NCBI RefSeq assembly: GCF_003572205.1
Contig: NZ_QXNY01000004.1
Coordinates: forward strand, 682,548-746,547
Direction: 5' to 3'
From: Algihabitans albus
GTDB lineage: Bacteria > Pseudomonadota > Alphaproteobacteria > Kiloniellales > DSM-21159
Length of the DNA stretch: 64,000 nucleotides
Shown here piece by piece: positions 32,475-60,374 of this stretch (positions are counted from its first letter, which is position 1; each line of letters opens with the position of its first letter). The notes under the pieces were generated by a model. It ran no database searches and had not been told where the DNA came from. It saw nothing but the letters and a program-made list of their open reading frames with translations. The translations under genes and the position numbers were made by a program.

Positions 32475-33128
32475 TCATCCCCAGTCGTCGGGGATCGCAT
32501 CGGCCTGGCGCCGGTAGTGCCAGAGCATTCGGGCGGCAACGGCGCGATAGGGACGCCAAGCTTCGGCCAGGCCCGCGAGGGTTCTGGCGTCCGGCCGCAC
32601 CTCCAGTCCCTTGAGGAGCTGTGCGCCCGTCATCAGACCGATATCGTCGGCCGGAAAGACGTCGGCGCGACCGAGAGAAAACAACAGATAGACCTGAGCC
32701 GACCAGCGGCCGATGCCCTTCGCGCGCGTCAAGGAGTCGATTGCCGCCTCGTCGTCGAGCGTGGTCAGTTGCTCCAGATCGATGGCACCTTGGCCGACCG
32801 TCTCGGCCAGCGCACGGGCGTAGCGTTGCTTCGGACGCGACAGGCCGATTGCGCGCAGGTCCTCGTCCGTCAGGGCCAGAAAGGTCTCTGGCGTGATGGG
32901 GTCGCACCGAGCGGCCAGCCGATCCGCGATTGCCTGGGCCGAAGCGAGCGAAACCTGCTGGGCGATGATGATACGCAGAAGCGTCGCAAAACCGGGTGCC
33001 CGGTACCGCAGCGGCGGTAGCCCGACCTCTTCCAGGGCGCGGAGGAAATCCGCGTCGATCCGGCCCAATGCCTCCAGCGCTGCGGGCAAGGTCTCTTGCG
33101 TGACGATCAAAGCTCTGTCTCTTTTCAT
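32475..33128 (-). CDS. DNA-3-methyladenine glycosylase, AlkA-like
   Basis: Base-excision repair glycosylase of the HhH-GPD superfamily, 217 residues. The helix-hairpin-helix is LTRAKGIGRWSAQVYLLF (about 133-150) and the catalytic aspartate is in VFPADDIGL (D161/D162). It lacks the N-terminal extra domain of E. coli AlkA, like the compact MAG-type enzymes. It removes alkylated bases from DNA. It is divergent from gluQ, with a 19-bp inverted repeat between them. Confidence 0.93.
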   Translation of the reverse strand: MKRDRALIVTQETLPAALEALGRIDADFLRALEEVGLPPLRYRAPGFATLLRIIIAQQVSLASAQAIADRLAARCDPITPETFLALTDEDLRAIGLSRPKQRYARALAETVGQGAIDLEQLTTLDDEAAIDSLTRAKGIGRWSAQVYLLFSLGRADVFPADDIGLMTGAQLLKGLEVRPDARTLAGLAEAWRPYRAVAARMLWHYRRQADAIPDDWG

Positions 33129-33163
33129 GGCAACTCGTTTCGATCCCGGTCGGCTGCCCCGCA

Positions 33164-33222
33164 GCCGCGGAGCTTAGAGCAAAGGGATAGCTACGATGTC
33201 CTCTTGCTCTAAGCTCCGCGGC
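33164..33222. repeat. 19-bp perfect inverted repeat between divergent genes
   Basis: GCCGCGGAGCTTAGAGCAA (33164-33182) is repeated as its exact complement at 33204-33222, with a 21-base loop. It lies between two divergent starts, so it is not a terminator of either gene. The arm ending in TTAGAGCA resembles small palindromic repeats dispersed between genes in other Alphaproteobacteria. It may be a REP-like or MITE-like element; no second copy is seen in this window. Confidence 0.75.
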
Positions 33223-33262
33223 AGATTATCCGACCTTGAGCCAGGGCGTGTCTCTCCGAAAT

Positions 33263-34144
33263 ATGATCGCCAGTTTCTCATCGACCGGTAGCGACGTGAG
33301 TCGCTTCGCCCCCTCGCCGAGCGGACGCTTGCATCTGGGCCATGCCCACTCCGCGCTCTTCGCGGCGCGCGCTGCCGGCCGGCAGGGCCGCTTTCTGCTG
33401 CGCATCGAGGATATCGATGCCGGCCGCTGCCGGCCCGAATTCGAGGCGGCGATCTACGAGGATCTGGCCTGGTTAGGCCTCCACTGGGCGCAGCCGGTCC
33501 TGCGCCAGTCGGAGCGTTTCGCAGTCTACGATGCGGCGCTCCGCCGGCTCGAAGAGCGAGCCCTGGTCTATCCCTGCTTCTGTACCCGCAAGGAGATCGC
33601 CGCCGAGATTGCCGGCGCGGGCGCCGCGCCGCACGGTCCCGAAGGGCCGCTCTATCCCGGGACCTGCCGCAGCCGCAGCGCGTCCGAGCGTCGCCGGCGT
33701 CTTGCCGCCGGAGACCCTCATGCCTGGCGTCTCGATCTGGTTAGAGCCGTCGCGGAAACGCCCGCCTTGACCTGGCACGATTGCGGCAGAGGCACGCAGA
33801 GAGCGCAGCCGGAACTTCTGGGCGACGCGGTGTTGGCGCGAAAGGATGTCCCGACCAGCTACCACCTGGCCGTCGTGCTGGACGACGCGGCTCAGGGCGT
33901 CACCCTCGTGACCCGCGGCGCCGACCTTTTCGTCACCACGCATCTCCATCGCCTGCTGCAAGCGCTGCTCGATCTCCCGGTTCCCCGGTGGCATCACCAT
34001 GACCTGCTCTCCGACGCCAAGGGCCGGCGTCTGGCCAAACGCCACGACGCCCTCTCTCTGGCTGCATTGCGCGAGGCGGGTCTCAGTCCTGCCGAGGTCC
34101 GCGCTCGGGCCGGCTTTCCGGAGGCCCCGCCGTCGCCCTCTTGA
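33263..34144 (+). CDS. gluQ: Glutamyl-Q tRNA(Asp) synthetase
   Basis: Short GluRS paralogue of 293 residues that attaches glutamate to queuosine in tRNA-Asp. It has the catalytic part only: SRFAPSPSGRLHLGHAHSAL (HIGH-type motif HLGH at 24-27), zinc ligands in YPCFCTRKE and LYPGTCRS, and the KMSKS equivalent RRLAKRHDALSL. It lacks the anticodon-binding domain. ATG 33263 is the simplest start, but neither it nor the in-frame TTG at 33236 has a clear ribosome site. Confidence 0.94.
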   Translation: MIASFSSTGSDVSRFAPSPSGRLHLGHAHSALFAARAAGRQGRFLLRIEDIDAGRCRPEFEAAIYEDLAWLGLHWAQPVLRQSERFAVYDAALRRLEERALVYPCFCTRKEIAAEIAGAGAAPHGPEGPLYPGTCRSRSASERRRRLAAGDPHAWRLDLVRAVAETPALTWHDCGRGTQRAQPELLGDAVLARKDVPTSYHLAVVLDDAAQGVTLVTRGADLFVTTHLHRLLQALLDLPVPRWHHHDLLSDAKGRRLAKRHDALSLAALREAGLSPAEVRARAGFPEAPPSPS

Positions 34145-34202: not shown

Positions 34203-34847
34203 ATGACGGGCTGGTCGTGGAAGCGGTCGAAGGAGCGGCAAGCGGATCGCGGCGACGGGTTCCCGGAAGAGGGTTACAGGAAGACCATGGGCGAGGAGGT
34301 CTTGTCGGAAATCCACGGATATTGGAGCCGCCATCTGAGAGGGCGCCGGATGCCGGCTCGTGCGGATATCGATCCGGCCGACATCCCGCACCTGCTGCCT
34401 TACCTGATGTTGACCGACGTTCTGGAGTCCGGGCACTACCGCTACCGCCTTGTCGGCACCGAAGTCGAACGCAGCTTCGGCGCACCCATGACCGGTCGCA
34501 CACTCGAGGAATTGATGTTCGGCGACTACCTCGTCTACATGACCGGTCTCTACCATCGCGCCGTCTTCGAGAAGCGTCCGATTTTCTCCACGTCGCGCTA
34601 TGGCGGTGTGGACCGCGATTGTCCGCTCTTCACCAAACGGGTGATGATGCCTCTGTCGAACGACGGCGAGCGTGTCGATATGCTGCTGTCGGCTCAGGTG
34701 TTTCTTCGGATGAGCGCCCTGGACGACCGAACGGCCCACATGCTGCTGCATAGTGTCGGCCACAGCAGCTTCGAAGAAACGGGCTACACGACGAAAGAAG
34801 CGGAGATGCCTGTCTTGGAAATGCCTGCCGACACGACCTCGGACTAG
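34203..34847 (+). CDS. PAS-domain protein (PAS_5 type)
   Basis: A 214-residue protein with one PAS-like domain. The core GYWSRHLRGRRMPARADIDPADIPHLLPYLMLTDVLESGHYRYRLVGTEVERSFG is the signature of the PAS_5 family, abundant in Rhodospirillales and lacking any output domain. The ligand and role are unknown. The first ATG is at 34203, in an AT-rich leader; ATG 34287 (MGEEVLSEIHGYW), with AGGAAG in front, is an equally good start and would remove a charged 28-residue extension. It is monocistronic. Confidence 0.82.
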   Translation: MTGWSWKRSKERQADRGDGFPEEGYRKTMGEEVLSEIHGYWSRHLRGRRMPARADIDPADIPHLLPYLMLTDVLESGHYRYRLVGTEVERSFGAPMTGRTLEELMFGDYLVYMTGLYHRAVFEKRPIFSTSRYGGVDRDCPLFTKRVMMPLSNDGERVDMLLSAQVFLRMSALDDRTAHMLLHSVGHSSFEETGYTTKEAEMPVLEMPADTTSD

Positions 34848-60335: not shown

Positions 60336-60374
60336 AAAAAAGAAACCCCCGCCGGCTTGGCCGGCGGGGGTTTC
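60336..60374 (-). terminator. Strong terminator of the GcvT/DmdA-family gene
   Basis: A perfect 15-bp stem with a TTG loop (60342-60356 with 60360-60374) is followed on the minus strand by six T (60341 side to 60336). It ends the minus-strand gene at 60396, and the same hairpin lies 28 bp after the plus-strand small gene, which it may also stop. Confidence 0.9.

Follow-up and report, generated by a model that had tools for sequence, protein, structure and literature searches.

The closest described systems to the structure reported here are the CIR elements, the CcrM-associated intergenic repeats of Caulobacter (PMC2229807). They are about 110 bp long, with a linker that joins two arms, GANTC at the terminal loop and TA at the ends. 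The perfect inverted repeat at 33164-33222 of the window (the whole 64-kb stretch of DNA that was analysed) resembles them in being an intergenic, alphaproteobacterial and stable hairpin, and TA lies near both its ends, inside its TTAGAGC/GCTCTAA ends, as it does in the CIR termini (PMC2229807). The same TTAGAGC/GCTCTAA ends are common to the hairpin and the CIR-like repeats found in this work. It differs from CIR elements in being one hairpin only, which lacks both linker and GANTC, was found in one copy and has an extra 10 bp of outer pairing. With REP/REPIN elements, which have RAYT transposases, it has in common the form of a short intergenic palindrome, but it was found in a single copy, no RAYT gene was found in its genome, and its perfect stem is long. 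Intrinsic terminators are likewise stable GC-rich hairpins; this one differs from them by its 21-nt loop, the lack of a T-run and a site between divergent genes. Overall, of the CIR features that gave a clear result the hairpin has only the TA-containing tag, the arm-model score pointing both ways; of the REP/MITE features that gave a clear result it has none, the comparison for an empty site being ambiguous. The reading we prefer, to which we would give about an even chance, takes it for a lone palindrome, peculiar to its species and probably young, that was made or perfected by hairpin-templated copying and has at most an effect in a 5' leader. The parts of the hairpin and its surroundings are as follows.

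33164..33182, no strand: left arm, 19 bp (from inverted-repeat comparison)
33183..33203, no strand: loop, 21 nt, part of which could pair as a weaker inner stem in RNA (from sequence and RNA fold)
33204..33222, no strand: right arm, 19 bp (from inverted-repeat comparison)
33174..33212, no strand: 39-bp core with the TTAGAGCA / TGCTCTAA tags at its ends; outside the core, 10 bp more are paired
32475..33128, minus strand: gene for an alkA-like DNA-3-methyladenine glycosylase, 217 aa (AlkA-type match of 31.9 bits, below the curated cut-off of 229)
33236..34144, plus strand: gluQ (GluQRS), 302 aa from TTG 33236 (358.3 bits, cut-off 250)
33225..33254, minus strand: putative promoter, a sigma-70-like consensus match GAGACA-18-GATAAT, 9/12, directed towards the alkA-like gene (consensus match only)

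The coordinates and lengths given in an earlier note on this DNA are exact: the 19-bp arms pair with 0 mismatches around the 21-nt loop, 59 bases in total. No longer perfect inverted repeat occurs across the 64-kb window (loops up to 45), and 464 kb of the hairpin's own genome (the window plus 20 further stretches) holds a single longer one, of 22 bp with a loop of 3. In that same sample the 33164-33222 hairpin alone combines a loop above 16 with arms over 12 bp. By our own estimate, chance would supply arms of 19 bp about 2e-3 times per genome. The predicted RNA fold has -48.8 kcal/mol on the plus strand (z -7.65) and -43.2 kcal/mol on the minus strand (z -5.70), and 0 of 200 shuffles folded equally well in each of four tests (RNA and DNA, both strands). 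Inspection of the sequence found no T-run after either arm; a terminator scan listed nothing at the hairpin, though it covers loops of 3-8 only and is thus blind to one of 21 nt. Elsewhere in the window, a terminator-like perfect 15-bp inverted repeat with a 3-nt loop lies at 60342-60374.

The two neighbours were correctly recognized in the earlier note as a divergent pair, with the hairpin in the spacer between them, although the AlkA-type match is weak. The start of gluQ is either TTG 33236 or ATG 33263; the L044 record (congener G001, or a near-identical record) has ATG where TTG 33236 sits, while congener G002 has ATG at the counterpart of 33263 and, by reading, no ATG, GTG or TTG at the equivalent of 33236. 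The gene after gluQ (window 34203-34847) is MopJ-like (a cell-cycle regulator), with 69.2 bits, far under the curated cut-off of 200.

A relative of alkA adjoins gluQ in many related genomes. When the region upstream of gluQ was screened at 111 loci with orientation corrected (L014-L123 and L125, with several genomes present twice and one upstream region short), the hairpin and tag were found in their own locus, L014, alone. Unrelated long inverted repeats do occur upstream of gluQ at two other loci, L030 (15-bp arms, loop 24) and L063 (26-bp arms, loop 5). The alkA-gluQ spacers of the only two congeners compared, G001 (L015; L044 is the same or a near-identical record) and G002, contain no hairpin. 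Taken between the putative gene starts, which were placed by reading (TTG 33236 here, its counterpart there), the G001/L044 spacer measures 43 bp versus 107 bp in this genome. G002 is the closest genome by AlkA identity (80 percent), and its spacer to the ATG is 136 bp long (135 bp of it aligned) versus 134 bp here, with a fold z of 0.24 versus -6.82.

Alignment of the whole spacer with that of G002 is better than 500 of 500 shuffles. The gluQ-proximal end, alone among five pieces, aligns locally (0.9 percent of 1000 shuffles scored as high); the hairpin, its halves and the left flank give no local alignment to the G002 spacer. In global alignment with G002 the spacer middle, where the hairpin sits, is matched by 144 of 1000 shuffles, and by 199 of 1000 when taken from the hairpin start. 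The nearly equal lengths of the two spacers had suggested a replacement of homologous sequence by the hairpin; this was rejected, the middle alone not aligning. Both congeners lack the hairpin, yet the middle cannot be aligned to G002, and no clean empty site or target-site duplication can be drawn from the comparison. A target palindrome does remain when the tagged core is removed on paper, and this is no evidence of insertion, as any perfect hairpin yields one.

In its own genome, too, the palindrome was found alone. Tagged in this way it occurs once in 4.68 Mb, and BLAST of an 87-base query returned the self-match alone. A 14-mer with up to 3 mismatches gave 79 and 74 matches there, versus 109 and 89 for the reversed control, and the only ones with fewer than 2 mismatches are the hairpin's own two arms. 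The looser pattern TAGAGCN{21,50}GCTCTA is found at 7 places, of which 2 are clear members of a dispersed repeat and 1 is the hairpin; since the reversed control gave 53 places, the pattern tells little by itself. Beyond this genome, none of the 60 other genomes of the order contains the palindrome extended by one base on each side. A 71-base query against 384 other genomes of the class gave 1 match, in G112 (E 0.009 for one genome); it covers 21 nt of a single arm at 95 percent, and no surrounding inverted repeat reaches 9 bp. The copy count that the earlier note had proposed for the genome and its relatives thus came to a single copy, with no second in the order or class genomes searched. 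That note had set a single copy conserved only with gluQ against a mobile repeat: the copy is indeed single, but it is not conserved with gluQ.

Thus, among the genomes compared the hairpin is species-specific, and because its arms are still perfect it is probably young. We suggest that hairpin-templated copying (intrastrand template switching) gave rise to the palindrome or else perfected and lengthened it, that the setting would have been a fast-evolving spacer between two divergent genes, and that the hairpin would play no role as a mobile repeat. The arms paired at 19 of 19 positions, the single copy and the two congener spacers without a hairpin all argue for this reading. Against a templated origin, G002 offers no demonstrable parent arm: in a search for one, loop plus right arm was equalled by 75 of 1000 shuffles, and left flank plus left arm plus loop by 43 of 1000. 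If transcribed, the hairpin would give the alkA-like mRNA (or that of gluQ) a 5' leader with a very stable stem-loop, which would have an effect at most on mRNA stability. The promoter scan found 1 sigma-70-like match (shuffles: mean 0.0, sd 0.2); if this putative promoter at 33225..33254 is real, its start point would lie within the right arm, and the hairpin would lie at the 5' end of the alkA-like mRNA. A one-off, species-specific hairpin of this kind would matter little by itself.

The main rival is that the hairpin is a solo, degenerate CIR-type arm. On this view a TTAGAGCA...TGCTCTAA hairpin entered the spacer, its linker and second arm being lost or never present, and it either went into the middle of a GC-rich palindrome or had its arms extended later. 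We regard this as somewhat unlikely, and the case for it starts with the tag, whose eight letters are common to a known kind of alphaproteobacterial repeat and identical to those of multicopy palindromes in other Alphaproteobacteria. The earlier note had remarked on a likeness to dispersed palindromes in this class, and the likeness is borne out: the pattern TTAGAGCAN{8,38}TGCTCTAA occurs at 58 places in 16 of the 384 other genomes of the class, with a maximum of 14 per genome (59 in 17 of 385 with the hairpin's own genome), versus 7 matches in 7 genomes for its reversed control. A lone tag match whose inner arms are short may be due to chance. The main text of PMC3733652 does not contain TTAGAG, and a literature string search for ttagagca gave, among the matches listed, no title on such repeats.

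Tagged palindromes lie at L179-L182 (G305), L183-L186 (G428), L187-L189 (G370) and L190 (G384), and 31 of the 58 tag places were inspected with their flanks (36 rows, five of which repeat a place). Tagged copies have a one-sided flank in common within G305, within G428 and within G370, while those inspected in G171 and G319 have no clear common flank. By eye, a second hairpin is present in the flank at the inspected loci of G305, G370 and G334. GANTC lies within 90 bases in 6 of 8 inspected loci, where about half of such stretches would be expected to have it by chance (there are 158 GANTC in the window); at L179 it falls outside the repeat, and L180 has the CIR anatomy, two arms with GANTC at a loop. 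In several genomes the tagged palindromes resemble a single arm from a two-armed repeat of CIR type. The hairpin differs from them in its pairing beyond the tag, which is 10 bp long versus 0-2 bp at the 31 other distinct places, and this counts against the solo-arm explanation. A known repeat tag on a perfect palindrome need not mean a repeat copy.

Through the tag we also came upon an abundant two-armed repeat in the hairpin's own genome (G000), which could help in the study of how such repeats spread. It is dispersed and CIR-like, about 142 bp long, with 30 loci aligned (L199-L228), a few of them divergent. Its consensus has the ends CTAG...CTAG, GATTC before the linker and GAGTCC in the second arm (GANTC), and it looks like a CIR-type element. 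Rfam has no match over four of its loci (L162, L200, L204 and L205). An arm model built from five sequences of one arm finds at least 43 distinct places in this genome at E below 1e-5 (strands merged), the best 150 of 1955 genome-wide candidates having been scored. The same model gives 23 matches in congener G001, 1 in G002, 13 in G010 and 1 in G006 (both strands counted). The abundance of these repeats here and their presence in G001 are in keeping with a lone arm in the spacer, as is TA at both tag ends, as at CIR termini (PMC2229807).

The arm model bears on the hairpin in both directions. With filters off and 401 bases searched it gives the hairpin two scores, 17.6 bits (E 7.8e-5) and 15.6 bits (E 3.2e-4), and the chance of the tag in a 19-bp arm is about 6e-5 to 1.7e-4 before allowing for the choice of motif; the tag chance and the E for 401 bases both speak for a connection to CIR arms. 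The loop GGGATAGC..CGATGTCC also looks, by eye, like the GGRATCGC..GCGAGTCC of the genome's other repeats. Over the 464-kb sample, however, the hairpin's 15.6 bits have E 0.38, and 17.6 bits would correspond to about E 0.9 genome-wide; the hairpin is not among the scored genome-wide matches (best 150 of 1955 candidates). The profile of the 142-bp repeat has no match at 33101-33300, there is no GANTC within 33100-33300, and reading of the flanks found no linker-like sequence or second arm, the folded spacer being one long hairpin. Moreover, the own-genome consensus has TTAGAGT...GCTCTAG, not TTAGAGCA...TGCTCTAA.

A cis-regulatory site for the divergent pair, whether a structured RNA leader or an operator with a dimeric regulator on its two inverted arms, is quite improbable. 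The position between divergent genes beside a promoter-like match would suit it, as would the very stable fold predicted for both strands. It is opposed by the two congeners without the hairpin and by the failure to find a second genomic site. A centre-to-centre distance of 40 bp between arms would be unusual for an operator, and the best Rfam score of the hairpin, 24.2 bits, is below the gathering cut-off of 75.

It is very doubtful that a single-armed CIR derivative entered, on its own, the middle of a palindrome that was already there; if it did, CIR arms can be mobile units themselves. The weakest reading takes the hairpin for a REP or MITE, as the earlier note had suggested, that was moved by a RAYT or an IS. 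It has the hairpin form and intergenic position to recommend it, but the single copy, the absence of a PF01797 match, the two congener spacers without a hairpin and phage and plasmid collections without the element make it highly improbable. Multiple copies with shared borders, a REP/MITE feature, were not found for the hairpin. The transposase search, which that note had proposed and which was limited to the Y1/RAYT type (PF01797), gave 0 matches in the hairpin's own genome at E 0.001, with 5 of 14 control genomes positive. The plasmid collection has no match to the hairpin and the phage collection one 20-nt match (E 0.8), and in neither does a match cover the hairpin; a 16-mer of one arm occurs in 19 viral contigs, with the partner arm in 0 of the 19.

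Hairpins with similar loops at L137, L140 and L141 were considered as copies of this one and rejected, as they are arms of another two-armed repeat. This second repeat type of the same genome (L137:7854-7992, L140:6244-6358 and L141:13876-13968) also contains GANTC, and the differences between its arms preserve pairing.
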